Below are positions 30,600-63,740 of a DNA stretch of 64,000 nucleotides, piece after piece. The stretch spans positions 307,557-371,556 of the forward strand of contig JAVLUZ010000822.1 in NCBI GenBank assembly GCA_036768485.1, in the 5' to 3' direction. The notes under the pieces are model-generated. The model searched no databases, had not been told where the DNA came from, and worked only from the letters and a program-made list of their open reading frames with translations. The DNA comes from Mermis nigrescens (Eukaryota > Nematoda > Enoplea > Mermithida > Mermithidae). Within the stretch, counting starts at the first letter, position 1; the number at the start of each line of letters is the position of its first letter. The position numbers and the translations under genes were made by a program.

Positions 30600-30943
30600 T
30601 GTAAAAAAACCGTCTAATTTACACTCCAGTGCAACAACCAATGAGTGTAAAGGAATTTTAAGACAAGATTCGTAACCTACTAATTAGGGAAAACATTTTT
30701 AAAAAAATTGGCCCTCCGCAAATTATTTGAATTTTTGGTGTAAACTTTACACACTCACGACGCGCTCGGCATTGAGTGTAAACAAGAAAAAAATGGGGGC
30801 ACTAAGTTTTTTTATTATCTACCTTTTTAAAAAAAACCGCACTTCTCAGATGTGTGCCGTTATAGCTGTGAGGGGGAACAAAAATTTCGCACTCGCTGTG
30901 AAAAACATAAGAAAAAAGGATGGCCAAGTATAGTTATAGCTAG
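30600..30943 (-). repeat. GTGTAAAG repeat, reversed head fragment
   Basis: Reverse-complement of the first ~340 bp of the repeat: GTGTAAACTTTACACACTC, AAAAACCGCACTTCTCAG, CGTTATAGCTGTGAGGGGG. Its outermost bases continue at 45172 on the far side of the retrotransposon, which split the copy. Confidence 0.8.
30940..30943. repeat. Target duplication CTAG, left
   Basis: CTAG immediately outside the left LTR; the same four bases follow the right LTR at 45172-45175. A 4-bp duplication is normal for Ty3/gypsy integrases. Confidence 0.8.
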
Positions 30944-32438
30944 TGTAACTTAGGTGGGTTCCGTCCACACCCGGGCGTGGGGGGGGTTTGTAGGGGGTAT
31001 GCACCCCCAGAAACCAAAATACCCCCCAGAAATCAAAATACCCCCCTAGAATTCAATTTTTGAAAATTTTTTTCGTTTTTTTCGCAATTTTTTGATGCCA
31101 ATGGATAGTGCTTGATGAGAAATGTTGAAAAATGGTGTTTTTATCGCCATACCACCATTTTTAAGGCCATTTTTCGACCTTCAAAAATCTTGCACCCCCC
31201 CCCAGAAATTTTCTTGGCTGCCCACATATGGTTCCGTCCGCCTTCGAGTTATTGGAGTATCTTAGCGCGCGCAAACGAGTTGGCTGATTCAGCACTTGAA
31301 GTATGTACGGATAAATAAACTGACAGCACGCCGTCAGAGAAGATACCCAACACACAACAACTACGAAAGCAGCGAACCCCGTAAGTACCTTCGGGATTTA
31401 CCTAAGTACCTATGCTACACCTAGCGCTGGTCAAGAAGCTGCGGTAAAAACCTGCACTCTTCCAAGCTGACCCTGAATACAGACTACCTAAAATCTCCAC
31501 GACGTAATTGGTCCGGTACCTATGGAGAAAAATAGAAGGAGATGCCGACCGCAGATCTTAACCAGGGGTAATTAGATAATCCCGGTATTCGCCCTAGGTC
31601 CTTAGACCTTTTTAGACCAAAAGAGTAATTTTTCGCGAAAAGAATTGAAAGGGTTTCGCACTAGATTACCTACGGCGAAACTACTTACGATTTCTGGTTC
31701 CAACAGCACTCTGTACTTAAAAACAACAACAAAGAGCTCTATTCAGGCTGTCATCAACTATAGAAATTATGTATAATTTTTATAGATTTTTGGATCGAAA
31801 GAGGAATTATGAATTTTGCACAAAACGATAAATAAAAACTTTACCCAACGAAATCCGGCAAGAAATAAAGCTATGGCCGGCCTGATCCCAATTCCTGACT
31901 GCTTGCGATATAATGCACCCCTAAGCAGTGGATTTTGTGCTTTTACCGAATTAAAACAATGAACAACAAACGGCGCTAATATAGTCGAAGATGACACGCC
32001 GTAAAAGTAAAAAGCCAAACTGGCACCAACCAACTAATAATCCCTTAGGGAGTTGGCCCACAGTAATAGAAGGAGAAATTATTGTAAAATGTGTTTATGA
32101 CAAAAATTGTGTGCTACTTGCACATAGATTTTCAGGTCCCCGCACAGGCTCAACGTGAATAGTGTAGTTATGTCGCCTATGTTTTAAATGTGAAAAGTGA
32201 TAGGGACTTGTGGGGTGTTCCACAGTAAAAGGTTGCATCATAGTATCCTCGCGACACCTAGGCAAGAGTCCAACCAATTGACACTGCGTGGTCGGAATGC
32301 CTCACATGTCATATCGTCGATCTGAAAATATGGCTGGAGTCGCCAAAGTGGAAACGCACGACCGGATGGTCTGAATTGGCGCACTAAGGTGCGTGAAGGC
32401 CGTACATGTAGCGGCTCGGTGTAGATACACTATCTACA
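30944..32438 (-). repeat. 3' LTR (left)
   Basis: Read on the - strand it begins TGTAGATAGTGTATCTACAC and ends CTAAGTTACA, the TG...CA form. 1,495 bp including a 265-bp MITE at 30966-31230 with an 8-bp duplication. Immediately preceded (- sense) by the polypurine tract. Open frames here are LTR shadows. Confidence 0.95.
30966..31230. mobile_element. hAT-like MITE in the 3' LTR
   Basis: CACACCCGGGCGTGGGG ... GGCTGCCCACATATG, flanked by a perfect 8-bp duplication GTTCCGTC (30958-30965, 31231-31238). Central repeats of CCCCCCAGAAATCAAAATA. Ends are imperfect inverted repeats (..GGGC near each end). The uninterrupted target is present in the other LTR at 43690. Confidence 0.93.
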
Positions 32439-32450
32439 CTCCTCCCTCAC
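32439..32450 (-). other. Polypurine tract
   Basis: On the - strand GTGAGGGAGGAG abuts the TGTAG start of the 3' LTR, the expected primer site for plus-strand synthesis. Confidence 0.85.
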
Positions 32451-32459
32451 CGGGAAAAA

Positions 32460-33035
32460 TTCGGAACACAGGCCGAATTTTTTAATTGGATTGAAAATTA
32501 TTGAAATATAAGAAAAATTTGTTGGGGATCCAACAAATGGAAAAGTTTGAGTAATTTATCGAAATTTTGATTGGGCCCCCTGTGGATGGGGAAAAAAAAT
32601 TTAGAGTTAAAAAGTATGGCGGCTGAATCCATGACCGAGCCTCTATCAAGTAGTGCGGAAACCTGAAAAATAAATTTGGATAAAAGGAAATTAAGTAGAT
32701 TTTAGATAAAGTTAAGATAAAATAAGGCCACACTTGCTCTGAGCAAGTTCAGGAATCAACAAGCTTAAAATGATGAGATTATGCAAAATTTAAAGACAAA
32801 AATTTTAAAGATACAGGCAATAACGGACCACAAACTAGTAGTTTTATAATAAAGACGCTTTTAACAAGACGCAAAAAAGACGACGTTGATCCAAACAAAT
32901 AAAATGCTGCTGGCCATTGGCACGATCACAGAGTCCAAATAAATGTGGTAAGCGAGCCAAGTGTGGCTATCAACGGAGTAGCTGGACGGCGGAACTCCTC
33001 GAACCTTTGATCACGGCGCGGTGGAGAAGGAAAGC
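32460..33035. other. Retrotransposon 3' untranslated stretch
   Basis: Between the end of ORF3 and the polypurine tract. AT-rich, no open frame with family resemblance. Confidence 0.6.
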
Positions 33036-33037
33036 GC

Positions 33038-34450
33038 CTAAAACTGCCGGATTCTGCGCGAAGGAGAGCGCGAATGGTATGGCTGTGGTTGTGGTTGACC
33101 CCAAAACTCATTTGACCGGGAGATTGAACGGCGTTTGTGTTGCGGCCGATCGAGACTAACGGTTGACCGGGGCGACCAACGCGTTGGTGATGGGTGACGC
33201 CCAACGCCTTCGCGTTGATGCTGCGGCGAACGCTGCTGCGACAATTCGAATTGCCGCTGTTGATAACCGCCAACGTTGTCAGCCGACCGCTGCAACCAAT
33301 GCGTCGGTAATGAGCCACGCCCAAAACCTTCGCGTTGATGCAACGGCGACCTTTGGCGCTGCACTGCTCAAGCGGCGGGCGGGGTTGAACGCGGGCCAGT
33401 GTTGCTGCGTTGGCTGCTGCTGCAATTGCCCACGCGGCATCGACGCTGCCGGTAACTGGGGCGAATTCTGTCTGAAACGAGACAAAGAAGAGGGTCCGGG
33501 TTCGTTTTCAGATGGCTTCGATAATAACGCCAGTTGGCGATAGATCATCGCTTGCCCTTGCGTCGCTCTCATCATTTTTGATTGGCACGCATAGCTCGTT
33601 GAGTATGTTCGTATTTATTCCGGACGTATCGGCTGGCCCTTAATTAAGGAATGGCTTCGTGATAGGATCGTAAGCTGCCCATGTACGCGTTCTCATCCTC
33701 ACGTATTATTTCAGAGGCCACGGCTAAAGAGCCTGGCTTACATGCAATAGTAACGCGTGGCAATGGCGGCATCAGTTGAGTTTCAAGATCGGCTTTCTTG
33801 ATTATCATTCGGGCCTGGCATAAGTTGATCTGAGCCTGTAAGGAAAGATCTGAAACGTTTCGTCGTTTCTTCGCTTGGGGGCCACTTGGGTCCTCCGCAT
33901 CAGCAAGTCGGTTTGTGTGATTGGCGTCTCTGCTGGTTTTGGCGAATATTGTTCAATTCGTCAGGTAGTTTTTTCAGAAGATAATGCGTAGAGTGTTGGC
34001 GCGATTTGTGACGACCGAATTGAGCAGGCACCGTTAAGTCAGGATCTGTGGCTTCGCTGAATTAGCTGAATATTGCAATGTAGCACAACCGGATCCTCAA
34101 TTTCTTCCGCTAACTGCAGGAAATTCTACAAAGGCTTCCCTCGGAAATCGAGTATACGTCGGACCGAAGAAGGCGGCACGAAGCATACGTCAAATCTGTT
34201 CACACATTTGCCAGGCAATTCCAGGATCGCCATACAACTTCGCGAAAATGAAGAAACGTTGATCTAAATAACGCAACAGTGATGTAGCTTGCAACACGTG
34301 CGCAGTAGCGAACACCGGTTTGCGGCTGAAAGTGGTTTTGTATTCTCTCTCAAATTCACGAAACGCTTCAAAAATATCAACCATTTGCCGCATCATCAAA
34401 CACAACGGCGCCGTATGATCAGGCTGAGGCTGGATATGATGCGGAAAGAA
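33038..34450 (-). pseudogene. ORF3 C-terminal region, fragmented
   Basis: Continuation of the ORF3 coding region in pieces joined by frameshifts and stops. From 34440 a frame reads PQPDHTAPLCLMMRQMVDIF and FEREYKTTFSRKPVF up to a TGA (34190), and continues in frame for about 30 codons. The last part (33575-33038) is rich in Gln, Pro, Arg and Ser, with two copies of a QRSP-Q/L-HQREG-x-GR-x-PT-W motif and an RSPSRR tail before the stop at 33038. Base composition is clearly higher in GC than the flanks. Low-complexity basic tails suggest nucleic-acid or protein binding; I know no homologue. Confidence 0.6.
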
Positions 34451-34451
34451 C

Positions 34452-35214
34452 TCAGGCTGAATTGTGACACCGAGTCAAACGTTCATTTGCGGCGGCGTCG
34501 GCTGAAAAGAATGCTTTGCGACGTATTGGATGTTTTACTTCATAGACCATATAACCGGTCGTGATAAACATGCGATTTCGCGTAAACAACGGATCTGGAT
34601 AGAACTGGCAGTGAAAGACAGAAGGCTGCGTAATAAAACGCGGCGCAACCCAATTCCTAAATGCCTCGTTTGGATCCGGATCCGTGGGTAAGCGTAGCGG
34701 AATGATTGGCCTCTCCGGCGGATTTAGAGATTCGACAATACTGCAAATCACGGGCGTACATCGAGTTGTAACACAGTTGAATGTCAGTACGCAAACCTGT
34801 GTACAGTTCCAAACCTGCTTCTGGTCCAAGCCAATTGCGAAAATTGAGAAAATTATGGATAGACAGGCAAGGTTGACCTGTTTCCTGCAATTCTTGCATG
34901 GTTTCCTGAAAATAATTCGTGTAGGCGGTTGTTCGGCGTTGTTCCTCATTATCCTGCACCTGCATCGGCTGTTCAGCCGGAGTTAGGACAACTGGTTCCG
35001 TCGGTTGCGGCTGCAAAATTTGAGGAATACGCGTTGACGGCAAAGGCTTGGCGGCGAAAGGCAACGTCATTGAGGCCATGATATTTTGGATATCCGTCGG
35101 CGCCGAGTAAGCAGGCGGAGGAGGAGCCACTGAAGCTGGAACAGCTTGTAAGGGCTCAAAACGCGATTTTCGAGTACGTGGCCGGCTGAGAGACGAAAGG
35201 CAAATTTTCGACAT
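34452..35214 (-). pseudogene. ORF3 middle region, fragmented
   Basis: Two overlapping - strand frames (35214-34657 and 34949-34452) carry one protein region broken by a shift. The first is Pro-rich (ASVAPPPPAYSAP), then helical (TAYTNYFQETMQELQETG). After the shift the second continues NPPERPIIPLRLPTDPDPNE, NWVAPRFITQPS, TTGYMVYEVKHP. It follows the exonuclease-like frame via a further shift at about 35170. No recognised domain. Confidence 0.6.
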
Positions 35215-36652
35215 CCAGGGGCCGACCTAACGGGGCGCTGGTTGCGGCCACAACTGGAACCCTATCTAAAACGTTTGTATCCATCGGTTCAGGCACGTTA
35301 CGCGATGTGGAAGGCAAATTAGCAATAATATCGTCAAGAACTTGTTGCTGCGTCGGCGATGGTGAACGCTGCGACGGCGGCGGAAATGGCGGCCTATCCT
35401 GGTCGTCTAACTCAAAGCCATCTAAAATAATCATTGTTGGATCCTCGCCATCCAAATCAGCTGTCAACGATCTGCGGAAATGTCGTCGTATGGCTTTTCG
35501 CCTTTGTTTCATATTGGGCGGCAATTTTGACAGCTTGATGTATAACGGCTCCGGCGGCGGCGCTGCCTGGACGGAACGTTCGTCACCCTCAAAAGTAAAA
35601 CCTGGCGGAACACGACGAGGAGAAATTTGACTCATGTTTGGCGAATACGTATCGATAAGAATGTGAACATCGAGCGAGAAAATTGGGTCTAAAACGAGAT
35701 ACCGTAACATAGGACCCGTCAAAGGCATGTTCCATGCCTGGCCAATCCACGTGACTGCCGAAGAATTCGGCTGCATATCGAAGAAGAAAGCTGCCAACGT
35801 TTTTAGGCGATGATTTCCGGCATTGATACGATGTTTGACCATGAAAAAGCGGCTCATCACCAGCGTATCTAAAATATTGGCCCTGAAAACCAAACACGGT
35901 GGAGGAAAGCTATCACGATTTTGTAAATAAGCCACTACATCTGCGCGATGTGGGCCGTAGACATGAAAATAGGCAATCTTATCGTTACTAGGATTGTGGC
36001 AGGCTAGAAAAACATCTCGCAGCTGTGTCTCAAGCAACTCCGCCAGCCCAAACGGGGGCTGTGGAAACCTAGAAATATCCCAAACAAAAACATGGCCATG
36101 AACGTCGGCAATCTGAATGTATCGAACAAAAGGACCGTTGGCCTGCATGTAGTTGGGATTGAGTTGTTGCCAATATCATTCCCAAACGCGGTAGGGCATG
36201 AACGAACAGTCGTTAACATGCTCGGAGTCGAAGCCAAAAAAGTACTGGCTGTTCAGACGATTAGACGACCTGAAAAGTGTTCGTATCGCGTTATAAGACT
36301 GTTCGTGTGTTTCGACCATTACGGTACGTCGAATGGCGTTTTCGGGCACATATGGCGCTGACAACGGGATACGGTCCATTGTTGCCATCCACCACTTACG
36401 TTGGGCATAGATACAATCGTAGTGGTGTGGCATTTCGTGGTGTGATGGTTCGCGAAGATTGGGAGTCACGTGTTCGTCGTTTTCGAAGTAAAGGAACTGT
36501 AAAGGGCACACCTCTGCGCGATACTGCTTTGCAGCAGCCGCAGCTTCGAGCGCTACTAGGAAATGGGCGGCATCGTTGTCGTTCCCGAGGCTAAACGTCG
36601 GACGATCTCGGTCCACGACGTCCTCTTCTGTTGGGGCACGCTGCTCAGCCAT
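35156..36652 (-). CDS. ORF3: DEDDy 3'-5' exonuclease-like protein
   Basis: One frame of 499 codons starting ATG at 36652, with an in-frame TGA at codon 159 (36176-36178). Residues ~110-330 follow the RNase D/WRN exonuclease fold: TVMVETHEQSYNAIRTLF, FFGFDSEH (D142, E144), YIQIADVHGHVFVWDI, HRADVVAYL (D238), ILDTLVMSRFF, NHRLKTLAAFFF, MLRYLVLD (Y318-x3-D322). All four acidic catalytic positions and the tyrosine of the DEDDy class are kept. An insertion of ~25 residues follows DSEH. The C-terminal third is Pro-rich and acidic. It sits where env would be. Known retroelement RNase H and integrase are separate domains upstream. Function is inferred from motifs only. Confidence 0.78.
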
Positions 36653-36672
36653 GGCTCTGCAAAAGGTGTAAC

Positions 36673-37482
36673 TTAGGGCACGGCATGTGCCGATTTAGCA
36701 CCAATTAACAAACGAATAGGCGCACACTCCCTCATATTCCTTTCCCGGCCTGCTAATTCCTCAAAAGTTATAACTACTGCCGGACACACAGGTCGACGCG
36801 GTAGCTTAACTAAAACAAAATCACCGGGTACGTATGCGTACTTTTCGGCAATGAGATCGGAATAGGGCAACTTTGGGGCAGGTAAGAGGCGATTACGGTG
36901 CACTACATGTTCGATTAAAGGATTATGCAAATAGATGATGCGCGCAGTTTCAGGCGTTGGCAAGGCTTTGATGCAATACGGACCTAATTGTTTAGGTGAA
37001 AGTTTTCCAATTTCAGGCTGAATTACCGCTTTATTGTTGAGATATACAATATCGTCAACTGCAAATTTACTTTCGCGCGTTGTTTTGTCATACTGCTTTT
37101 TCTGATGGTTACGCGCTTTAGCAAGATTTTCGCTAGCGATATCGTGTAAGTTAAGAAGCGTAAGTTTCAGATCAGCAAGATATTTTTCAGCGATGTTAGG
37201 TATATTAGGATTCAACGCGAGATCGCTTAAAAGCTGTATATCGAGTGGAAAAGAAGGTTCACGACCGTACAGCATCTCAAATGGCGAAATATTTGTAGAT
37301 GACTGCGGCGTTGCGCGATACGCGAATAAAGCAAAGGGCAAAAATTGTTCCCAGTCGTATTGATTTCTCGCGCTTAGTTTAGAAAGTCCATCGATGAGTG
37401 TTCGATTATACCATTCAATCAACCCATCACACTGAGGATGATAAGGGGTTGTGAAAACTTTTGAACACTTAGTAATTTGCAA
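36673..37482 (-). pseudogene. Integrase C-terminal half
   Basis: Reads CSKVFTTPYHPQCDGLIEWY, the third catalytic residue (E of GLIEW, W in place of the usual R after it), then FALFAYRATPQSSTN, SPFEMLYGREP, a helical linker, and a beta-rich C-terminal domain with GPYCIKALP..ARIIYLHNP..HRNRLLPA. Joined to the upstream half by a frameshift near 37470. Ends 21 bp before the ORF3 start codon. Confidence 0.9.
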
Positions 37483-38270
37483 ACTTCGGAAATTAGCGCT
37501 GATGTGAAATTTGAGCCTTGATCAGTTAAAAATCGCTTTGGAACGTCGTGTCTAGGAATTACTTCGCGCAATAATAGGTTTGCTATGGTGACCGCTTTTA
37601 TATCAGACACTGCAAACGCTTCAACATACTTAGTAAAATAGTCCATGAAAACAACGATTTGATCATTCCCGGACGTCGAACGAGGCATATGGAGACAATC
37701 ACACGCGATTAACTCAAATGGTGCTGAAACTTTGATGGGCTGCAGAGGTATGGTGGTGGGGTTATTCGCTACCTTACGCTGCAAACACACCTCACAATTC
37801 TTACACCATGCAAGCACATCATTCTCCATTCTAGGCCACCAGTAACGAAGCTGAATGGCGGGTAAGATTTTTCGCGCGGAGAAATGGGCTCCAAAGATGG
37901 AATCATGAAATTCGGTTAAGATGAAACTACGAAGCGATTTCGGAATGACAAGCTGATGAATGGTATTAGCTGCACGCTTAGGCTGAAATCTGCGATAGAG
38001 AATTTTATTTAGCAAGAAAAATTCGTCGCGATATTTACGTGTTGTTAAGTCGCTGAGCGATTCACGAATTTTGTTTAACTCTTCATCTTGACGTTGTTCG
38101 GCAAGGAGTTTAGCAGGCGACAGAATTTCTGCTTTTTCAGCTTCAGATAAAGTGATGCGTTCATAAAAAACTGGCGGATGATCTTTTTGCGCAGCTTGCA
38201 GTTTTGGCGCGATGGTTTGTTGTCTTATATCAGGTGGTTTGTTGTCGTCGTCAGACTCAGACGCTTCGGA
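37419..38270 (-). pseudogene. Integrase N-terminal half
   Basis: Open from just after the TAA at 38271 to 37419. Contains the HHCC zinc finger (HDSIFGAHFSARK ... CKNCEVC), RYWWPRMENDV, the first catalytic Asp in ACDCLHMP, FMDYFTKYVEAFA, and the second in LTDQGSNFTS. The reading frame then goes out of register after SEVCK. Integrase cuts and joins the cDNA ends into host DNA. A linker of ~85 codons (38270-38016) precedes the finger. Confidence 0.93.
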
Positions 38271-38866
38271 TTAGAGGTTAGCGACGTTAGCAACGGGTTT
38301 ACGTTCGAGTTTATAGCGTTGTTCGTCGCGATCGTACTTAGGATGACGCGATAATAAGTCCGCAGCGCAGTTATATGCGCCTGGTACATAAACAACCTCA
38401 TACTCGTATTCCTGTAATTTTAAACCCCAGCGTCTTAAACGACTGGAAGGATCTTTTACATTTACGAGCCAAGTAAGCGCCTGATGATCTGTTTCCACGA
38501 TGAATTTTTTGCCATAGAGATAATGCCTATAATGCTTAATTGCCCAGACAACCGCTAAAGCCTCCTTCTCAGAAGTGGCATAGTTACATTCGGCCGAGTT
38601 TAAAACATGGCTAGCATAACCATGAATGAAACGATTTTTAGATGGAAGATGTTTCTGCGTAAGAATGGCACCTAGCGCGTAATTGCTTGCGTCGGTTGTC
38701 AGGATGAATTGATGGTCATTATCGAACTTAGGCAACTGCAAAATCGGTGGTGAAGTGAAGGCATCTTTTAACGTTTGAAAAGCTTTTTGATGTTCTTCAG
38801 TCCAAAGAAATTCCGTGTCTTTTCTTAATAAACGAAAAAGAGGTTTCGCGATTTTCGCGAGATCTT
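38271..38866 (-). pseudogene. RNase H domain of pol
   Basis: After the shift in an A-run (window T-run 38864-38869) the frame reads LAKIAKPLFRLLRKD, WTEEHQKAF, TTDASNYALGAILTQ (catalytic Asp), SEKEALAVVWAIKHYRHYLY (catalytic Glu), FIVETDHQALTWL (catalytic Asp), then AADLLSRHP. This is a Ty3/gypsy RNase H with catalytic residues intact. It ends at a TAA (38271-38273) where the pol frame continues unchanged beyond. Confidence 0.93.
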
Positions 38867-39003
38867 TTTACAAATTTTTTGAACCATTGAACGAGACCAA
38901 GAAATTTCTGTAAAGCTTTCACCGTTTTTGGCACTGGAAAATTGATCAAATCTGCAATTTTAGTCAAGTCAGGAGCAATACCTAGCGAACTTATGCGATG
39001 ACC

Positions 39004-39735
39004 CTAAAATTGGACTTCTGCATGGGCTAGATGACATTTTTCTGGTTTAACCCTTAAGTTTGCGTTTTGAAGCGCGCGAAAGACATCTTCTAGATTTTTA
39101 AGATGCTCTGAAAACGTGCGCAAAAACACAATTATATCGTCGATATATACGAGACAGGTTTTCCAATTTAAACCAGCGAGAACAAGCTCCATAAGGCGCT
39201 GAAAATCGGCGGGGGCGTTTTTTAAACCAAAAGGTAACACTTCGAATTCGTAGTGACCTACAGGACAGATAAAAGCGGTTTTTTCACGCGATTTTTCGTC
39301 AAGGGGGATCTGCCAATACCCAGATTTTAAGTCTAGCGTACTAAAGTAAGCTGCAGACCCTAGGGCATCAAAATAATCGTCAATTTGAGGTAGAGGATAA
39401 ATTTGAGTTTTTGTCACATCATTTAATCGTCGATAATCCACAACTGGGCGGAGGGAACCATCTTTTTTCCCAATTAAAAACAAAGGACTGGCCCAGGGAC
39501 TAGTTGTTGGTCTGATGACTTTTTCCGCGATCATTTCGTTTATTATTCGTTGCATGACTTGTCGGCGCGCGTGTTCGACACGATAAGTTTTACCTACAAC
39601 AGGGGGATTATCCCCTGTGTCGATGTGATGTTTAACGAGCGGAGTGCGACCGAGTGGTTCGCCTTTTAAAGCGAATATCGAATTATATTTATGACAAAGA
39701 TCACGAATTTGCTGCTGTTCCTTAGAGTTAGCGAT
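39004..39735 (-). pseudogene. Reverse transcriptase domain of pol
   Basis: Open in the -1 frame relative to the gag-protease ORF. Begins with a linker (PLVKHHIDTGDNPPVV), then RT: VIRPTTSPWASPLFLIGKKD, RPVVDYRRLND, YPLPQIDDYF, FSTLDLKSGYWQI, TAFICPVGHYEFEVLPFGLK, and catalytic LVYIDD. It stops at a TAG (39004) inside the conserved F-L-G-H block, evidently a point mutation, and the frame goes on GHRISSLGIAP..LGLVQWF until a frameshift near 38866. Confidence 0.94.
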
Positions 39736-39755
39736 GGAACCCTGTAAAGCCTTAT

Positions 39756-41741
39756 TTATCGAGGAAAAAGTTCAAGCGAGCGATCGTCTGAAACAGAAAC
39801 ATGAGACACGACCTCAACATCAGACGTTAGCGATCCAATTAGCTCTCCAGTGTCGACCTGAACGGGCGATTTCGAGATGTTACATAACCTCAAAGGAAAA
39901 ACTGAAACTGAAGTGTCGACGATAGCAGGGGCGACAAAAAGTGAACTTTTGCGCATAAAATCTGGATCGGGCTCGAAAAGTGCAATATCAGCATCATAGG
40001 AACCGTGACTTATATAAGCAGGTGTTATTAATTTGTGGCGTGGCAAAATCGTGATGGGCTCTGAAATTGAAACATGCATGCAGATAGGACATGCGATCTT
40101 AGTGTTTGGATTGGTACGAAACTGCAATTTTTCACTCGGTGATAAGAGATTTAATTTTATACCGTTTATGAACGCGCAATCTTCGATGGGATTTACCCAG
40201 AGTAATGCGGAACGGCAAAAATCAAAACCGAGAAGCATGTCTTCTGGCAATTTATCGATGATAGACACTAACGTGGGAATAGAATGATCCGCGATAGTTA
40301 TAGTCATATTAAAATTAAAGCGAACAACTACTGTTGTGTCACCTACACCGTGCACGACTTTAGACGTTTGTTTCGGAGGTAACCTGAAACCTAGTCTTAA
40401 AAATGCTGCAGTAGTCATCATTGTGACTTGCGAGCCAGTGTCAATTAGTGCCGGAATTTTTACACCATGAATTTCAGCCAAAATGGTGGGTAGATTTGTA
40501 CCTGCATGACTAACTATCGGAATTTCAGGATCCTGATTTAAGGTGGGGGATGAAGTCATTTTTTCTAAAACCGCTAATCTTCGCTGCAATCTATCATATT
40601 CTTCCAAAAATGCTTGGGATGCAAAATTTTCTTCCCGCTTAGTTTCTTCAGATTGATGAGAAGTAACCATGTTTGCATTTTTCTTAGGCGAGTAGGGCGG
40701 TTGCGGCGGGGGATAATCTAAGGCAGGCTGGAAATCCGCTACATATGTGACGTTAGGGGGATAATTTCGCGGCGCAGAACGATAATTGGAATTATAATAC
40801 GTATTACGCTGTTCTGCCGGATGAGTCACATAAGGATTATTTTGGCGATAGTCATACGATTGCATGCGATTATCATAGGGCTGATTTTGATAGTTTTGGC
40901 GATAATTTGGCGCGTAATCGTTATAGTTTTGCCTAAAAATTGGACGCGAGCGCCTAGAATCAAAACGTGCGTCAGAACTTTGAGGGATAGGTTGACGATT
41001 TTGGCTTTGATCGCGATACCTAGGCTTAGACTGAGGTCGATTATTATTATTTGAGCGCGACGATGAGCGATTACGACTATTCCAAGAACGCGACTGACTA
41101 CGTTGACGCGCGGCGGGTTCGAATTTCGCTTGCTGTGCATTTTCGTCAAGTTTGCGCTGTCTCATCTTTTTAAAACATTGTTCTTCAACATGACCCGTGC
41201 GCTTACAAAAATCGCAAAATTTACGCGCTGAAGATTGCTCATTTTTGGGGCGTTTTGAACGAGAAAACGTCTTATTGCGCGAACGATCAGAATCAGCATT
41301 ATTAGAAAAACGCACAGATTCCTTAGGAATTGCACCGGTGGCAGGATTGGCAATGGTCAAGACATAGGGCGTTGGCGCTTTTTTCGCTACAAGTTGGCGC
41401 GCTGCATACTCTGCGCATTTAGCATTATGCAAAAATTCATGTAACTCAGCTTCAGGCGCGCGTTGATAGGCTGCAGTTGAAATTTCAGGTAACATACCGC
41501 GCTTTAATTGATGGCGAAGCATTTCGTTAAATTGCTCAGAGTCGGTTTCAATATGAGGTCTAGCGCGTCTTAATTGTTTGTGAAGCGCGAGATAGTAAGC
41601 TTGAACAGACTCATTGGGCTGTTGCTTACGGTCAAGAAAGTGGTCATATAACGTATCGTGATTGAGAGGACGAAATTCCGCGATCATAGCGTACTTAGTC
41701 TGTAGTGTAAGAATTACGCACTTCTTGAGGTAACGCTTCAT
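39756..41741 (-). CDS. Gag C-terminal part plus aspartic protease
   Basis: 661 codons open. Residues ~15-110 are the C-terminal half of the retrotransposon capsid (DRKQQPNESVQAYYLALHK). A zinc knuckle CDFCKRTGHVEEQC lies at 176-189, followed by a long Arg/Ser/Asn/Tyr-rich disordered region. The protease is marked by ALIDTGSQVTMM (434-437 DTGS) and LLGFDF. The first 17 codons overlap the gag N-terminal frame; the true junction is a +1 shift at about 41700. It stops at 39756, pol following in the -1 frame after a short T-run, which could be programmed frameshifting or decay. Confidence 0.92.
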   Translation of the reverse strand: MKRYLKKCVILTLQTKYAMIAEFRPLNHDTLYDHFLDRKQQPNESVQAYYLALHKQLRRARPHIETDSEQFNEMLRHQLKRGMLPEISTAAYQRAPEAELHEFLHNAKCAEYAARQLVAKKAPTPYVLTIANPATGAIPKESVRFSNNADSDRSRNKTFSRSKRPKNEQSSARKFCDFCKRTGHVEEQCFKKMRQRKLDENAQQAKFEPAARQRSQSRSWNSRNRSSSRSNNNNRPQSKPRYRDQSQNRQPIPQSSDARFDSRRSRPIFRQNYNDYAPNYRQNYQNQPYDNRMQSYDYRQNNPYVTHPAEQRNTYYNSNYRSAPRNYPPNVTYVADFQPALDYPPPQPPYSPKKNANMVTSHQSEETKREENFASQAFLEEYDRLQRRLAVLEKMTSSPTLNQDPEIPIVSHAGTNLPTILAEIHGVKIPALIDTGSQVTMMTTAAFLRLGFRLPPKQTSKVVHGVGDTTVVVRFNFNMTITIADHSIPTLVSIIDKLPEDMLLGFDFCRSALLWVNPIEDCAFINGIKLNLLSPSEKLQFRTNPNTKIACPICMHVSISEPITILPRHKLITPAYISHGSYDADIALFEPDPDFMRKSSLFVAPAIVDTSVSVFPLRLCNISKSPVQVDTGELIGSLTSDVEVVSHVSVSDDRSLELFPR

Positions 41742-43203
41742 ACAAATTTAACGCATAGTCGTCGAAAAATGATGAAACAAATTCAGCTCGATCTTTTTTA
41801 TCAATTTTATATATTTTTGCCAGTCTTTCAAATTCACTGAAAAATTTCCGAATATCGGTTTTTTCACCCTGAAAAGATTTCCTAGCAGCTACAGCTATAT
41901 GCATTTGCTGTATGAAAGGGCCGCGATTAATAGCTTCAGCAACAGATGATTTATCGCGCGAAGAAGACGAAGAATCTGAATTATGGCGTGAGCGACGAGA
42001 ACTGCGACGCGAACTTTCGCTGCGGCGCGAGCGATGCGAATCTTCCTGCTGCGAAGAGCTAGAGTCCTCATCTGAAAATCTGACATGGCGCTGGCTGGCT
42101 GGCGCGACTATATTGTCCCTGATTGGCATGGATTCGTCGTTAGGATTGGCTAAATTATCGTGCGCTGAAAAATTATTGCTCCTGAAATGCGACGCGTGCT
42201 GCATGGGCGCGCTTTCCGCGTTAGAAGGAAAATACTGCAAGGGCGGCGGGTTTACAGAATGATGTTGCGTATTATTTACAGTATTAGGCACAAATTCAGG
42301 CGCTAGCTGATTTAAAGGGCGCTGCAAAAATTCTGAAAAAGTAGGCGCGTTTTCAACACTTTGCTGATTAGACGCGTGCTGTGAAGAATGCGCAAAATTA
42401 GATAAATTATCCGCAGAAAGAGGGTTTTGCACACGCTGCTCACGCATACACGACGATCTAAAATCAACAGGCATACGATCACTCATAGGTAAAATAGGCA
42501 CAGATGTTCTTTCAGACGCGAGTGTAACCTTAGGCTTAGGATTATTAATCGGAGGCCGAATGACAGGCGATGAATTATCAAACTCGGTTTCGTTATTTAC
42601 CGTCTGTTCGACACGCCGTTTCGGTAACTTGATAGGCACGTCATTAATCACGTTTTCGTCGTTATGTACTCGCAAAGACTGACTAGCCTCAGGGCGAGCA
42701 GAAAACGTAGCCGTAGACCGGTTATTAAGTTCCTCACGAATTTGGCGCAATTCTTGCGCATGCTGAAACTGCATTTTCTGAATAGTCTCAAGAATAGTCG
42801 AAAGAATTCGGTCAGAATTTGCCGAATTAGGACGAGTTTCATCCTCATTTTGCTTTTCAGATGCATTACTTTCCACATCAAAAGTTCGACTAGGTAAAAC
42901 GGCTTCGTTTTCCGTCTGATTATCATCGTTACTCGCGCGCAAGTTAAGATCATTATTAACGATCGTTGCGTCAGAATTTACTTCAATTTGCGTATCAGCA
43001 GAATTACCGGTTCCGGAATGCACACTGCCAGTAGTAGACTCGTTATCAGAAGGGATAACAGAGGTATTATGTACCGAAGGGGGTAAAATAGTGTTATCGC
43101 TCGCCAAAGAACTGGTTTGATCAGGCTGTACTGGGCGCGCAGGACGGGCTAGGGGCGGCACCTTTTTAGCTGGAGGGGTACGTAAAATTTTCTTACCACC
43201 CAT
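41695..43203 (-). CDS. Gag N-terminal part
   Basis: 502 codons from ATG 43203. N-terminus MGGKKILRTPPAKK is basic and Pro-rich; the first Met-Gly-Gly could allow myristoylation in principle. A long low-complexity region (Ser/Asn/Asp/Pro) is followed by an Arg/Ser stretch and then the capsid start (GPFIQQMHIAVAARKSF, DIRKFFSEFERLAKIYK, FFDDYALNLYEALPQE). It stops at TAA shortly after NSYTTD, in the middle of the capsid fold, whereas the continuation is in the +1 frame. No classical slippery site is visible, so this is most likely a lesion. Confidence 0.9.
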   Translation of the reverse strand: MGGKKILRTPPAKKVPPLARPARPVQPDQTSSLASDNTILPPSVHNTSVIPSDNESTTGSVHSGTGNSADTQIEVNSDATIVNNDLNLRASNDDNQTENEAVLPSRTFDVESNASEKQNEDETRPNSANSDRILSTILETIQKMQFQHAQELRQIREELNNRSTATFSARPEASQSLRVHNDENVINDVPIKLPKRRVEQTVNNETEFDNSSPVIRPPINNPKPKVTLASERTSVPILPMSDRMPVDFRSSCMREQRVQNPLSADNLSNFAHSSQHASNQQSVENAPTFSEFLQRPLNQLAPEFVPNTVNNTQHHSVNPPPLQYFPSNAESAPMQHASHFRSNNFSAHDNLANPNDESMPIRDNIVAPASQRHVRFSDEDSSSSQQEDSHRSRRSESSRRSSRRSRHNSDSSSSSRDKSSVAEAINRGPFIQQMHIAVAARKSFQGEKTDIRKFFSEFERLAKIYKIDKKDRAEFVSSFFDDYALNLYEALPQEVRNSYTTD

Positions 43204-43204
43204 T

Positions 43205-43650
43205 ATAAAAATGGAACGTTTGAAATATGAACGTTAGGTAAAAGAAAATTTTTCTCCCAAAAAATCCACTATCTGAAAATCTGAAAAAATTTTTTCGAAT
43301 TGGACCCCTCTAGGTATGGGTTTTTCCTGAAAACGTACCTCTATATGCCAAAATAGCAACGAGTACAAAAGAGAGGCACAAAAGAATTTATGAGCGTGGC
43401 GAAAGGCGAAAATATTTCGCTTAGTCGAATAGGTATATAGAGAAAAAATACCAGCGACTTTACCACAAATACAGAATTTCTTTGCCGCGAACGCTTAACT
43501 TATCTGCGCACTGCCGCGACGCGGACGATACGATAAAAATATACGAGCGAAACAATACACATTTTTAGAATGCCGAAATAAATATTTTTGGGTAAAGAAA
43601 ATATTATGTATTAATTTAAATGATGACAGACACCGGATCGGTTGTCGCGA
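43205..43650. other. Retrotransposon 5' leader
   Basis: Between PBS and gag ATG. About 450 bp of AT-rich sequence with no conserved frame; would hold the packaging region. Confidence 0.6.
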
Positions 43651-43654
43651 GCAA

Positions 43655-43671
43655 CCTTAAGGGGGAAACTC
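43655..43671 (-). other. Candidate primer-binding site
   Basis: On the - strand the 5' LTR end CTAAGTTACA is followed by one G and then TGGAGTTTCCCCC. A TGG start matches the CCA end of a tRNA; I cannot name the tRNA. Confidence 0.6.
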
Positions 43672-43672
43672 C

Positions 43673-45171
43673 ACTGTAACTTAGGTGGGTTCCGTCCGCC
43701 TTCGAGTTATTGGAGTATCTTAGCGCGCGCAAACGAGTTGGCTGATTCAGCACTTGAAGTATGTACGGATAAATAAACTGACAGCACGCCGTCAGAGAAG
43801 ATACCCAACACACAACAACTACGAAAGCAGCGAACCCCCGTAAGTACCTTCGGGATTTACCTAAGTACCTATGCTACACCTAGCGCTGGTCAAGAAGCTG
43901 CGGTAAAAACCTGCACTCTTCCAAGCTGACCCTGAATACAAACTACCTAAAATCTCCACGGACGTAATTGGTCCGGTACCTATGGAGAAAAAGGGAAGGA
44001 GATGCCGACCGCAGATCTTAACCAGGGGTAATTAGATAATCCCGGTATTCGCCCTAGGTCCTTAGACCTTTTTAGACCAAAAGAGTAATTTTTCGCGAAA
44101 AGAATTGAAAGGGTTTCGCACTAGATTACCTATGGCGAAACTACTTACGATTTCTGGTTCCAACAGCACTCTGTACTTAAAACACAACAACAAAGAGCTC
44201 TATTCCGGGCTGTCATCTACTATAAAAATTATGTAATAATTTTTATAGATTTTTGGATTGAAAAAGGAATTATGAATTTTGCACAAAACGATAAATAAAA
44301 ACTTTACCCAACGAAATCCGGCAAGAAATAAAGCTATGGCCGGCCTGATCCCAATTCCTGACTGCTTGCGATATAATGCACCCCTAAGCAGTGGATTTTT
44401 GTGCTTTTACCGAATTAAAACAATGAACAACAAATGGCGCTAATATAGTCGAAGATGACACGCCGCAAAAGCAAAAGCCAAACTGGCACCAACCAACTAA
44501 TAATCCTCAGGGGGATTGGCCCACAGTAATAGAAGAAGAAATTATTGTAAAATGTGTTTATGACAAAAATTGTGTGCTACTTGCACATAGATTTTCCAGG
44601 TCTCCGCACAGGCTCAACGTGAATAGCGGTCATGTCGCCTATGTTTTAAATGTGAAAAGTGATAGGGGACTTGTGGGGTGTTCCACAGTAAAAAGGTCGC
44701 ATCATAGTATCCCTCGCGACCACACCTGGGCGTGGGGTTTGGGGGTATGCACCCCCCAGAAACCAAAATACCCCCCAGAAATCAAAATACCCCCCCAGAA
44801 TTCAATTTTTGAAAATTTTTTTTCGTTTTTTTTCGCAATTTTTTGATGCCAATGGATAGTGCTTGATGAGAAACGTCGAAAAATGGTGTTTTTTATCGCC
44901 ATACCACCATTTTTAAGGCCATTTTTCGACCTTCAAAAAATCTTGCACCCCCCCAGAATTTTCTTGCTGCCCACGTATGCTCGCGACACCTAGCGACAAG
45001 AGTCCAACCAATTGACACTGCGTGGTCGGAATGCCTCGCATGTCTATATCGTCGATCTGAAATTATGGCTGGGTCGCCAAAGTGGAAACGCACGACCGGA
45101 TGGTTTGAATTGGCGCACTAAGGTGCGCAAAGGCCGTACATGTAACGGCTCGTGTAGATACACTATCTACA
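43673..45171 (-). repeat. 5' LTR (right)
   Basis: 1,499 bp with the same ends as 30944-32438. Differs by scattered substitutions and 1-2-bp indels (e.g. ATAGAAGG versus GGGAAGG) and by its own 259-bp MITE at 44721-44979, at a different place from the MITE in the other LTR. Confidence 0.95.
44721..44979. mobile_element. hAT-like MITE in the 5' LTR
   Basis: CACACCTGGGCGTGGGG ... GCTGCCCACGTATG, flanked by a perfect 8-bp duplication CTCGCGAC (44713-44720, 44980-44987). The empty site is in the other LTR near 32250. A few percent diverged from its sister at 30966-31230. A third, more diverged relative is at 62583-62824. Confidence 0.93.
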
Positions 45172-45181
45172 CTAGCGCTAT

Positions 45182-45213: not shown

Positions 45214-47242
45214 TTAGCAGCGTACTCTGCATATACTTGGGTACCCCCAACACCTGGGCACTCCCCCCTACAGCTATAACGGGACACTTCTGGAAGGTGC
45301 GGTTTTTTTTAAAAGAAAGATAATAAAAAAATTCGCTGCCCGTGTTTTTTTGTTTTTCTTGAAACTCAAAATTGACTGTGTAAAGAAGGTGTAAAGTTTT
45401 TGTGTAACGTTATAACATAGGACAAATTTTGGGACCTTTTTACTGCGGCATGTGGACAACTGAGCATTGATGACTCGAAGGATTGAACAGAATATGATAA
45501 TAGAGGGATGAATTCTACAGATGACACTTTTTTTGTTTTTTGAAATTCGCATTATTTATCGAACGGCAGTGTAAAGAGTGCGAAAATCTGGGGGTGAAAA
45601 AGCACTTTTTGGTCGAGTTTTCAACCTTCCTATGTCCGATACTAACTCCGGTTATGAGGTTTTTAAAATGTTTTCTGACAGAAATGTAGAGCGGATCAAG
45701 GGCTACATTCTGCTTATAAGCAAAGTCTTCTATGCTCTATGGTGAGTTAGATCCTGGGGTTTAAAGTTTACACTCTAGTGGATGGTGTAAAAAAACGGAT
45801 TTTTAACTAAGATTTCTCTGCCAAATTTTTTCCGCTTATGAGTCAGTGCAAATCGAAGACAGCATTAATAAAGTGCCTCACAGGGGCTAAACATCGCAGC
45901 AAACCGCATTTAAAAAAACGCAATATTGAGTTATTTATGGGGGTGTAAAGTTCGAAATCAGAGGTAAAAAATGGGCTAAAAAACACGTTTTTTCCGAAGT
46001 TTGATTGATAAATCATGCCAAATAATTTTTGCAACAGAATTTTGGCACACAGGAATGTACTACGATTTAAAAGCTACAAATTGTACCAAACCGAATTTCT
46101 TTAAACTCAATGGGGAGTTCGGTACGGAATTTTAAAGTTTACAGTGTTCTAAATGATGGAAAATACGTTTTTGTTGCGTTTTTTGTTCGCCACTTTCTCC
46201 GTCCAGAAGTCGGGATAAGTCTAATAGAATAAAAATAAAGTGCTTTATATCGGGTGCATGTCAAAGCAAATTGTCTATACATTAATATTTAGCGAGTGTA
46301 AAGTCAAAAATTTGGAGTTTTAAATGCGTTTCTGTCTTGTTTTTTCTGCCTGCTTCTCCGGTTACGAGTCAGGGACACGTTTATCAAGTCTAGAAATGGA
46401 CCAGGAATCAAATTTGATATGCCAGTCTGGCGAATATGTTTACACTCTACGGTGTTGTAAAGTAGTTTACACCAATTGTTAGTTTGCCCATAGAACATTA
46501 TGTAGACTTAATTTTTTCATAAATATTAATCGTAATATCGGAACAATATCAAAATTACGAATCTGACTAAAATCTTCTTTACACTAGGTGTTTACATGAA
46601 GTTTACATTACATATATATTTATCTTCGTTTTTGAGCATTCCTGAAACCTAATTTTTTCTTGGAGCCTAGAAGTTTTCAAAGGATCAAATGTGAGACGTC
46701 ACGTAGGCGCGTTTGTTTACATCCAACAGTGATGTAAAGTAGTTTACAATAATTGTTTATATGTCCTCAGACCATTGTAGAGACATAATTTTTTTCATGA
46801 ATGTTGATCAAAATATCCGAGTAGTTTTTACACTGCATGTTAGCCTTTGTTCTAGAGCATTGCAAAAATCGAAATTTCTTCCTGAGATATAAAAATTTAC
46901 AGGGAATGAAATATATACGTCAATTGGGCGCGCTTGCTTACACTCAGCAGTATTGCAAAGTGGTTTAAACCTAATGTTTATTGTCTTTAAAACATTATGG
47001 AGACTCATTTTTCCATAAATGTTGAAAGAAATATCGGAGCAATATCAAAATTACGAATCCGACTAAAATATTCTTTACGCTATGTGTTTGTGTAAAGTTT
47101 ACGTTACGTGTTAACCCTAATTCGATAGACTTGCAGGAGACTTTGTAACTGAAGTCAAGAAATTTTCAAGGATTCATATGTGAGACATCAATTAAGTGAG
47201 TTTGTTTACCCTCAAAAGTAATCTAAAAGTGATTTAAAAATA
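45199..47242 (+). repeat. GTGTAAAG repeat, copy 2 (first of tandem pair)
   Basis: Head TAGGTAGCGCGTTAGCAGCG, GCTATAACGGGACACTTCTGG, GGTGCGGTTTTTTTT, then at least six degenerate units carrying CTCCG(C/T)..(T)ATGAGTC-type and GTGTAAAGTTTACA-type motifs. From 45234 it is repeated almost perfectly 2,009 bp on. Small - strand frames (60-92 codons) occur identically in both tandem copies but look like repeat sequence, not genes. Confidence 0.85.
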
Positions 47243-50200
47243 ATATACTTGGGTACCCCCAACACCTGGGCACTCCCCCTACAGCTATAACGGGACACTT
47301 CTGGAAGGTGCGGTTTTTTTTAAAAGAAAGATAATAAAAAAATTCGCTGCCCGTGTTTTTTTGTTTTTCTTGAAACTCAAAATTGACTGTGTAAAGAAGG
47401 TGTAAAGTTTTTGTGTAACGTTATAACATAGGACAAATTTTGGGACCTTTTTACTGCGGCATGTGGACAACTGAGTATTGATGACTCGAAGGATTGAACA
47501 GAATATAATAATAGAGGGATGAATTCTACAGATAACACTTTTTTTGTTTTTTGAAATTCGCATTATTTATTGAACGGCAGTGTAAAGAGTGCGAAAATCT
47601 GGGGGTGAAAAAGCACTTTTTGGTCGAGTTTTCAACCTTCCTATGTCCGATACTAACTCCGGTTATGAGGTTTTTAAAATGTTTTCTGACAGAAATGTAG
47701 AGCGGATCAAGGGCTACATTCTGCATATAAGCAAAGTCTTGTATTCTCTATGGTGAGTTAGATCCTGGGGTTTAAAGTTTACACTCTAGTGGATGGTGTA
47801 AAAAAACGGATTTTAACTAAGATTTCTCTGCCAAATTTTTCCGCTTATGAGTCAGTGCAAATCGAAGACAGCATTAATAAAGTGCCTCACAGGGGCTAAA
47901 CATCGCAGCAAACCGCATTTAAAAAAACGCAATATTGAGTTATTTATGGGGGTGTAAAGTTCGAAATCAGAGGTAAAAAATGGGCTAAAAAACACGTTTT
48001 TTCCGAAGTTTGATTGATAAATCATGCCAAATAATTTTTGCAACAGAATTTTGGCACACAGGAATGTACTACGATTTAAAAGCTACAAATTGTACCAAAC
48101 CGAATTTCTTTAAACTCAGTGGGGAGTTCGGTACGGAATTTTAAAGTTTACAGTGTTCTAAATGATGGAAAATACGTTTTTGTTGCGTTTTTTGTTCGCC
48201 ACTTTCTCCGTCCAGAAGTCGGGATAAGTCTAATAGAATAAAAATAAAGTGCTTTATATCGGGTGCATGTCAAAGCAAATTGTCTATACATTAATATTTA
48301 GCGAGTGTAAAGTCAAAAATTTGGAGTTTTAAATGCGTTTCTGTCTTGTTTTTTCTGCCTGCTTCTCCGGTTACGAGTCAGGGACACGTTTATCAAGTCT
48401 AGAAATGGACCAGGAATCAAATTTGATATGCCAGTCTGGCGAATATGTTTACACTCTACGGTGTTGTAAAGTAGTTTACACCAATTGTTAGTTTGCCCAT
48501 AGAACATTATGTAGACTTAATTTTTTCATAAATATTAATCGTAATATCGGAACAATATCAAAATTACGAATCTGACTAAAATCTTCTTTACACTAGGTGT
48601 TTACATGAAGTTTACACTACATATATATTTATCTTCGTTTTTGAGCATTCCTGAAACCTAATTTTTTCTTGGAGCCTAGAAGTTTTCAAAGGATCAAATG
48701 TGAGACGTCACGTAGGCGCGTTTGTTTACATCCAACAGTGATGTAAAGTAGTTTACAATAATTGTTTATATGTCCTCAGACCATTGTAGAGACATAATTT
48801 TTTCATGAATGTTGATCATAATATCCGAGTAATTTTTTACACTGCATGTTAGCCTTTGTTCTAGAGCATTGCAAAAATCGAAATTTTTTCCTGAGATATA
48901 AAAATTTACAGGGAATGAAATATATACGTCAATTGGGCGCGCTTGCTTACACTCAGCAGTATTGCAAAGTGGTTTAAACCTAATGTTTATTGTCTTTAAA
49001 ACATTATGGAGACTCATTTTTCCATAAATGTTGAAAGAAATATCGGAGCAATATCAAAATTACGAATCCGACTAAAATATTCTTTACGCTATGTGTTTGT
49101 GTAAAGTTTACGTTACGTGTTAACCCTAATTCGATAGACTTGCAGAGACTTTGTAACTGAAGTCAAGAAATTTTCAAGGATTCATATGTGAGACATCAAT
49201 TAAGTGAGTTTGTTTACCCTCAAAAGTAATCTAAAGTGATTTAAAAATTATGTTCAAGTGTCCTTAGATCATTGAAGAGATGTAATTTTGTCTTAAATGG
49301 GTTGCATTAAAGTTAAATCTTTCTTAGCCGTGTTTATAATATGTTTCACAAAATCTTGCACATGGAGAGCTATCGTTTAATTGATGTAAATTGCCTGCAA
49401 AAGTGGTTTAAAATGAACCAGCAATCACACTACTGTGCACAGAAGTCGACAAAGATATGCAGCTTTATTGTAATCATGTACATTAATAAGCCGTAAACTG
49501 TTAGTATTCTCTACACCTAGTAGTTGTGTAAAGTTTGCACTATTCATTTGTTGTTAATATGTAGTCTATACTACAAATTTATTTTACTACCAAATCAAAG
49601 CGTTAGTGTTCCTTACATTTGATATTTGCGTGAAGTTTTTGAATTTTTGCCGAAAATCTTTGCCTTCTAATTTACCAACATCCCGCCTTTTCCATTTTCT
49701 TGAAGTTTAAAATCTTTTATAATTCTCTCATAATTTAATGGTAGGTTTTAACTTTAAGTTTCTCTTGGTTTACAACTCTCGCTTAGCAAGCTCATTTTTC
49801 AAAACTTTTTCATAGTGATCAGATTAGTTGCGTTTAGTTTGGAATTGGTGGACGGTCGTTATTTTATTACACGGCTTAAATAAACCAAGTGACTATCTTT
49901 TGATTATTTTCTTCATCGCAAATTCAAACACCCAATTTTCAATTTGAAAATTGACCCAATTTTCAATTTGAAAATTGATCCAATTTTCAATTTGAAAATT
50001 GAAAATTGGGTATTTTCAATTTCAAAAAGTCACAACACATTGTGCTTGTGTATTGATTGAGTGAGGATTTGCAATGTGAATTCGTTGGTTAAATTTTTGT
50101 GCTTGATTATAAGTGAACTGCACATTAAGAAGAAATAACTTAATGCAGTTTTAATTTGAAAATGGATGGTGTCAATAAGGTTGTCTTGTTTAAAAAGGAT

Positions 50201-50322: not shown

Positions 50323-51339
<1,017 letters not shown>

Positions 51340-60163: not shown

Positions 60164-63740
<3,577 letters not shown>

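Follow-up and report, generated by a model that had tools for sequence, protein, structure and literature searches.

A probable DEDDy 3'-5' exonuclease gene in the env position of Ty3/gypsy retrotransposons of the nematode Mermis nigrescens

Introduction

Among long terminal repeat (LTR) retrotransposons, whose env-position genes often have no known function, the closest described counterparts of the locus reported here are the Juno and Vesta elements of bdelloid rotifers, in which a third open reading frame (ORF3) encodes an RNase D-like DEDDy exonuclease that, according to the available part of the report, was acquired at least twice (Rodriguez, Kenefick and Arkhipova 2017, PMC5408684). We describe a Ty3/gypsy retrotransposon of the mermithid nematode Mermis nigrescens with a probable exonuclease gene of this kind in the env position. 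It lies in a stretch of 64,000 nucleotides (assembly GCA_036768485.1, contig JAVLUZ010000822.1, positions 307,557 to 371,556 of the forward strand), here called the window. An earlier note, made from the letters of the window alone, had drawn attention to this gene and knew of no gypsy family described with such a nuclease; the rotifer elements are a close precedent, and given this precedent the exonuclease-ORF3 kind is known and the nematode element is a new form of it.

The available part of the rotifer report describes elements with a gag-pol-ORF3 layout between LTRs, with the exonuclease ORF following the integrase and with more than one element lineage per genome, and its authors infer exchange of ORFs between retroelements; the nematode elements resemble them in layout and in the predicted nature of ORF3, and likewise form more than one lineage. 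They differ in host phylum, in the length of the LTRs (about 1.5 kb, or about 1.2 kb without an inserted repeat, versus 159-551 bp), in the PWWP or PWWP-like domain at the end of the integrase and in an ORF3 of up to 1,304 amino acids; further, a dUTPase is described between protease and reverse transcriptase in Juno and Vesta (PMC5408684), whereas a scan of seven gag-pol frames of the nematode elements gave no dUTPase match.

Three other sources, each as far as its available part goes, are relevant. DEDDy exonuclease ORFs are carried, among others, by the Terminons, which are Athena Penelope-like elements of bdelloids and not LTR elements (PMC6431247), and a DnaQ-like exonuclease is one of the accessory domains that an opinion paper of 2019 regards as well known in LTR transposons, with the rotifer work among its citations (PMC6338049). 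Within nematodes, the Ty3/gypsy element Cer1 of C. elegans has in the env position a large, nuclear, non-env protein, CERV, which is required for export of Cer1 genomic RNA; in contrast to the ORF3 described here, no exonuclease is mentioned for CERV (PMC10309623). No description of a nematode or mermithid element with a DEDDy, DnaQ-like or PF01612-type exonuclease was found among the listed literature, which was covered by title and start of abstract, with most subscription journals outside coverage. Apparently new here are the nematode host, the number of lineages (three), the great size of an ORF3 that has a nuclear localization signal (NLS)-like motif and a basic tail, signs that ORF3 has been exchanged, and an integrase bearing a PWWP domain.

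ORF3 in the window and in sister copies

The earlier note had placed one frame with a single TGA (35156-36652) between the integrase and the 3' LTR. The frame is present there, with 499 codons and on the minus strand, which the note had not given; it does not hold as a whole gene, as the stop at 35156 ends the frame of the window copy only and open copies reach 1,304 amino acids. The 499 codons of the window are a decayed part of a longer ORF3.

Sister copies joined to the same integrase, which the note had proposed to look for, are present. A search of the host genome (523,963,438 bases in 860 contigs) with the second piece of ORF3 gave at least 133 matches, 55 of which extend over 310 or more of the 330 residues in the query; 42 of these 55 have no internal stop, by a table count in which some entries duplicate each other. 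The window family was represented by 28 loci at 25 distinct places (L003/L023, L005/L009 and L007/L010 being pairs, and L001 the window copy itself). An integrase lies directly upstream in 24 of the 28, with none in the stretch examined at L013, L021, L025 and L026. ORF3 is open across the place of the window's TGA in 25 loci; the window copy and L011 are the exceptions, and the place is not covered in L026. L011 is a second family A copy, with its frame also broken at that place.

Open copies L009 and L010 have an ORF3 of 1,304 amino acids. The frames of subfamily B are 1,249-1,250 amino acids long and 62% identical to subfamily A; their last part seems to be off-frame, since an A-like tail is found in another frame. 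The start of ORF3 in the window family overlaps the last part of the integrase frame and is in a different reading frame. An NLS-like motif (KR-spacer-K(x)(K/R)R) is present in all six ORF3 frames checked, and the last 250 residues of these frames carry a net charge of +22 to +27, although some of these tails are off-frame. As predicted from its sequence, the ORF3 of open copies is a single protein of up to 1,304 amino acids, in which the exonuclease domain is followed by a linker rich in proline, a conserved region that has no known fold, a signal resembling a bipartite NLS and a basic tail. Many replacements between close family A copies (L004, L008, L012, L022 and others) have, by impression, the look of transitions (Asn for Asp, Lys for Glu, Cys or His for Arg).

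Profile evidence for an exonuclease domain

Sequence comparison makes it very probable that the N-terminal third of ORF3 is a 3'-5' exonuclease domain of the DEDDy type, of the same kind as in WRN, Egalitarian and mut-7 (PF01612, DNA_pol_A_exo1). A genome search with PF01612 gave 90 matches, 46 of them above cut-off, and 19 further places were taken (L049-L067), chosen mainly for distinct scores and including several close copies of one another. At 18 of these places an integrase related to that of the window lies upstream on the same strand (none was seen at L060), and the ORF3s scanned from what are here called lineages P and Q all matched PF01612 (six of six, E = 3.6e-10 to 1.3e-6). Two further gypsy lineages, P (with PWWP-tailed integrases) and Q, thus carry an ORF3 with a clear PF01612 domain.

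A profile of the first third of ORF3 from the window family aligned over 230 columns with one built from eight ORF3s of lineages P and Q (hhalign probability 98.3%, E = 1.8e-14), whereas the reversed profile gave E = 0.039 and five column shuffles E = 0.23-0.61. Searched against PDB, a joint profile of 14 domains from the three lineages matched the WRN exonuclease (4.8e-12), Egalitarian (3.6e-10), a mut-7 homolog (3.1e-9) and EXD2 (1.1e-7); homology of the window family to PF01612 was found by these two steps, by way of relatives that exceed the cut-off. ORF3 has profile homology and the DEDDy residues in common with WRN, Egalitarian, mut-7 and EXD2 (PF01612), but these are host proteins, and ORF3 differs from them in its C-terminal part and in having extra residues inserted after motif I, ahead of the following conserved strand. 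The joint profile also found one PF01612 protein of 199 amino acids in the protein database (P0001, E = 1.4e-4), where the ORF3 of L034 gave nothing at E <= 0.01; against viral contigs it gave 21 pattern matches, none of them confirmed, and the window pieces had no match among those contigs. The C-terminal parts of ORF3 from the three lineages did not match each other (E = 0.24-0.39), and common descent is therefore claimed for the exonuclease domain only.

Several results weigh against this assignment. The profile search proposed in the earlier note was negative with the window copy alone: its pieces have no Pfam match, with PF01612 absent at E <= 10, only two chance matches among PDB sequences (E = 0.38 and 1.2) and no match among 5.8 billion proteins. 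Subfamily A likewise lacks a PF01612 match at E <= 10 and has none in PDB or the protein database, and the examined places of the window family are missing from the genome-wide PF01612 match list. The window-family profile alone found nothing in PDB at E <= 10, so that the link of the family to known exonucleases runs through its sister lineages. A single-sequence AlphaFold model of the second piece was unusable (mean predicted local distance difference test score 43.5); an uncertain helix in it at HRADVVAYL would fit D238. With subfamily B, PF01612 was the sole Pfam-A match of the whole ORF3 at E <= 10 (E = 0.042, 14.1 bits versus a cut-off of 23.6) and the domain alone reached E = 0.0052 at best, with six of 12 members matching; a direct match above the curated cut-off was reached by neither the window pieces nor subfamily A nor subfamily B.

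The missing direct Pfam match of the window copy would suit a likeness that arose by chance in a frame that is random or decayed, an explanation to which we give almost no credence, as it is refuted by the many open copies, by purifying selection (below) and by the profile matches and their controls. An env-like protein for cell-to-cell spread, with an incidental likeness to nucleases, has in its favour only the position between integrase and 3' LTR; it is very improbable in view of the significant nuclease homology and the NLS-like signal, and because none of five ORF3 frames scanned with Pfam matched an env family. The RNase D/WRN-type DEDDy exonuclease that the earlier note had read in the env position is instead supported by profile homology, conserved catalytic residues, sister copies with the same integrase and purifying selection.

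Three of the 46 PF01612 matches above cut-off are exons of one host gene on contig C728 (L068, C728:216624-221285), a multi-exon gene that we take to resemble Rrp6/EXOSC10; no other examined place has a PF01612 gene that is clearly cellular. Capture of ORF3 from this gene found no support, as phmmer at E <= 10 matched no ORF3 frame among 773 frames.

Selection and possible exchange of ORF3

Comparison of the exonuclease domain between the open copies L009 and L012 gave a synonymous divergence (dS) of 0.27 and a nonsynonymous divergence (dN) of 0.027, that is a dN/dS of about 0.1. Between subfamilies A and B (L009 and L014) the proportions of synonymous (pS) and nonsynonymous (pN) differences in the domain were 0.74 and 0.19, a pN/pS ratio that is unreliable because the synonymous values are near saturation; the pN of the domain was the lowest of five ORF3 segments (0.30, 0.35, 0.26 and 0.59 in the other four, with the value of the last segment affected by the off-frame tail of B). 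Close pairs were less clear, with a ratio of 0.28 for L009-L010 and, in the domain of L014-L020, no synonymous change and a pN of 0.005. Judged by these substitution patterns, the exonuclease domain is under purifying selection.

The synonymous divergence between A and B also changes along the element. On the integrase side, where the comparison covers the C-terminus only, pS was 0.53 (0.44-0.63, codon bootstrap) in the 178 codons before ORF3, versus 0.74 (0.65-0.84) in the exonuclease domain and 0.81 (0.75-0.87) in residues 600-1050, and nucleotide identity, which is 0.83-0.87 in the integrase, was only 0.55-0.73 over the initial part of ORF3. The contrast fits exchange of ORF3 between element lineages and may be a sign of it; codon bias or constraint could produce it too.

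Catalytic residues

A complete catalytic set of D142, E144, D238, Y318 and D322 had been proposed in the earlier note. These residues stand where they were said to stand, but D238 is probably not the aspartate of motif II, a place that probably belongs to D224 (..SND-KIAY..): D224 aligns with the motif II aspartate of the sister ORF3s, and the joint profile aligns this stretch with WRN. By alignment, D142 and E144 are unchanged in all 26 readable loci of the family and D262, Y318 and D322 in all 28. Across the 14-domain alignment the aspartate of motif I, the tyrosine and the last aspartate are invariant, and the glutamate of motif I and the aspartate of motif II are nearly so.

Two substitutions make catalytic activity less than certain, as D224 is Asn in five of the 28 family loci (L004, L012, L013, L022 and L028) and every one of the 11 subfamily B loci has Glu in place of D238. 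A swap of acidic residues would not be unheard of: the rotifer ORF3 changed from DEDD to DEED, as described in the available part of the paper (PMC5408684), whereas motif II has Asp here by best alignment. Motif I is damaged in two sister ORF3s (Lys for Glu in L051, Tyr for Asp in L042), and the DEDDy set is complete in the others of the 14-domain alignment.

Such variation would also suit a catalytically dead DEDD-fold protein that binds RNA for export or packaging, an analogue of CERV in its role and comparable to Maelstrom and EXD1, which the available part of the rotifer report gives as inactive DEDD derivatives (PMC5408684). This explanation draws on the unsettled position of motif II, with its aspartate varying at either candidate residue (D/N at 224, D/E at 238), on the damaged motifs I, and on an NLS-like signal and basic tail that suit a nuclear RNA-bound protein; we find it doubtful given the constancy of D142, E144, Y318 and D322 and the complete sets of the other sister ORF3s. 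We consider the domain reasonably likely to be catalytically active.

Possible function of ORF3

Homology, a nearly complete catalytic set, linkage to an integrase and purifying selection can be read from the sequences directly. The reading that we favour, and consider likely, is that ORF3 is the exonuclease of a large gypsy element, active and nuclear, which would act on the nucleic acid of the element and would not be an envelope protein. ORF3, in a frame shifted from pol, would probably be made from its own message (spliced or re-initiated) or by frameshifting. Its product would enter the nucleus, where the basic tail may tether the exonuclease to element nucleic acid; both this tail and the NLS-like signal are in keeping with a nuclear protein bound to nucleic acid, without favouring one substrate over another. 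The exonuclease would most likely trim or degrade the 3' ends of RNA, either in maturation of the element RNA or in removal of antisense or small silencing RNA, and we lean slightly towards RNA rather than DNA as the main substrate.

Action on DNA, as trimming of the 3' ends of element cDNA or removal of mispaired ends, was among the proposals of the earlier note, which also suggested that the exonuclease could degrade host RNA or small-RNA intermediates. WRN, which gives the best match in PDB, is an exonuclease that acts on DNA, and ORF3 adjoins the integrase; however, Egalitarian and mut-7, which are proteins of RNA pathways, match nearly as well, and ordinary gypsy elements handle their cDNA ends without such an exonuclease. 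We consider a DNA-acting ORF3 unlikely and retain RNA 3'-end processing as the preferred role. The recurrence of an exonuclease under selection at this position, in two phyla of animals, would mean that 3'-end processing is a repeatedly useful addition to the retrotransposon cycle.

PWWP-tailed integrases and relations of the lineages

The integrases of lineage P end in a PWWP domain, matched by PF00855 in all three frames scanned (L038, L042 and L044; E = 9e-14, 1.5e-11 and 1.6e-13), and a FAKIKGYPFWPA-type PWWP motif was found by pattern in seven or more other integrases (L051, L055, L057-L059, L061-L063, L065). The tail of the window-family integrase has no Pfam match alone and aligned with the PWWP tails of P with an hhalign probability of 57% (E = 1.1e-4). 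No description of a PWWP domain on a retrotransposon integrase was found among the listed literature, with the coverage given above. Such a tail on an integrase would have its counterparts in the chromovirus chromodomain and in the tethering of HIV integrase by LEDGF; by this analogy the tail is possibly a chromatin-targeting module comparable to a chromodomain.

The RNase H of the window is 52-54% identical to that of lineage P and 46-49% to that of Q, and its integrase 44-45% and 32-35%, respectively. In a quick pol tree, made with no outgroup, P and Q each fell on one side of a branch, with the window rows on long branches.

A wider picture, argued by analogy and put forward as an outside possibility, is that several mermithid Ty3/gypsy lineages have in common an ORF3 that passes between them as a module and encodes a nuclear exonuclease of the mut-7/WRN type, which would counter or rewire small-RNA silencing of the element, together with a PWWP integrase (in the same or related elements) that would steer insertion to chromatin, H3K36-methylated if it acts like known PWWP readers, the rotifer and nematode forms having arisen by exchange or partly by convergence. 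If true, LTR elements would possess a two-part kit for chromatin targeting and anti-silencing. The small-RNA pathways of nematodes, including mut-7, are well studied and may offer a testing ground for the anti-silencing role.

Structure of the window element

The window element is a minus-strand Ty3/gypsy LTR element of 14,228 bp, delimited by its LTR pair, target site duplication (TSD) and ordered pol domains (Table 1). It has TG..CA LTR ends, a TSD and the order protease, reverse transcriptase, RNase H and integrase, with a GPY/F integrase, which places it in Ty3/gypsy. Gag precedes a CCHC knuckle with protease, reverse transcriptase, RNase H, integrase and the ORF3 frame, which is followed by about 2.2 kb of broken frames and the 3' LTR. 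Both integrase and ORF3 are broken, and the copy is thus decayed. Outside the repeat insertions the two LTRs are identical at 96.7% of 1037 columns and 94.0% of 201 columns (blastn).

Table 1. Features of the retrotransposon, in positions of the window
Feature	Position	Strand	Basis
Ty3/gypsy LTR retrotransposon, decayed copy	30944..45171	-	LTR pair, TSD, pol domain order
TSD CTAG, 5' side	45172..45175		read from sequence
5' LTR, 1497 bp, TGTAGATAG...TTACA; ~265-bp repeat inserted at ~44717-44979	43675..45171	-	blastn vs 3' LTR
gag frame, 512 amino acids, no Pfam match at E <= 0.01	41698..43233	-	frame listing, Pfam
CCHC knuckle (CDFCKRTGHVEEQC) and aspartic protease frame	39759..41747	-	PF13650 2.4e-10; knuckle by eye
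Reverse transcriptase	39007..39771	-	PF00078 4.8e-36
RNase H	38274..38867	-	PF17917 5.3e-36
Integrase, zinc-binding and core	37422..38270	-	PF17921 9.5e-20, PF00665 9.4e-10
Integrase C-terminal half, frame-shifted in window copy; GPY motif (LGPY) by eye	36676..37521	-	86-99% identity to integrase frame upstream of ORF3 in sister loci
Integrase tail, diverged PWWP-like	36694..36831	-	hhalign vs sister-lineage PWWP tails
ORF3 first piece: N-terminal region and motif I (D142 36227-36229, E144 36221-36223)	36179..36652	-	frame reading, alignments
In-frame TGA of window copy	36176..36178	-	frame reading, locus alignment
ORF3 second piece: predicted remaining exonuclease domain, then linker (D224 35981-35983, D262 35867-35869, Y318 35699-35701, D322 35687-35689)	35159..36175	-	alignments
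ORF3 decayed remainder, shifted frames	32929..35226	-	match by eye to successive parts of the open 1,304-residue ORF3 of L009
Frames of the ORF3 remainder	34660-35226, 34455-34982, 34193-34474, 33647-33952, 33282-33614, 33041-33367, 32929-33507	-	by eye
3' LTR, 1495 bp; same ~265-bp repeat at a different site, ~30966-31230	30944..32438	-	LTR comparison
TSD CTAG, 3' side	30940..30943		read from sequence

The repeat of about 265 bp, which resembles a short interspersed nuclear element, was inserted separately in the two LTRs with apparent target duplications of about 10-13 bp, and a similar piece seems, by eye, to be present in the ORF3 region of L066 near 2606. Just outside the 5' LTR there is a tandem duplication of about 2 kb (45231-47241 and 47243-49248, 99.06% identical), with diverged relatives of parts of it at about 2973-4214. 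Long AT-type dinucleotide repeats occur at 51000-51400, 62100-62500 and 63200-63700, and read as Ile-Tyr runs in six-frame translation.

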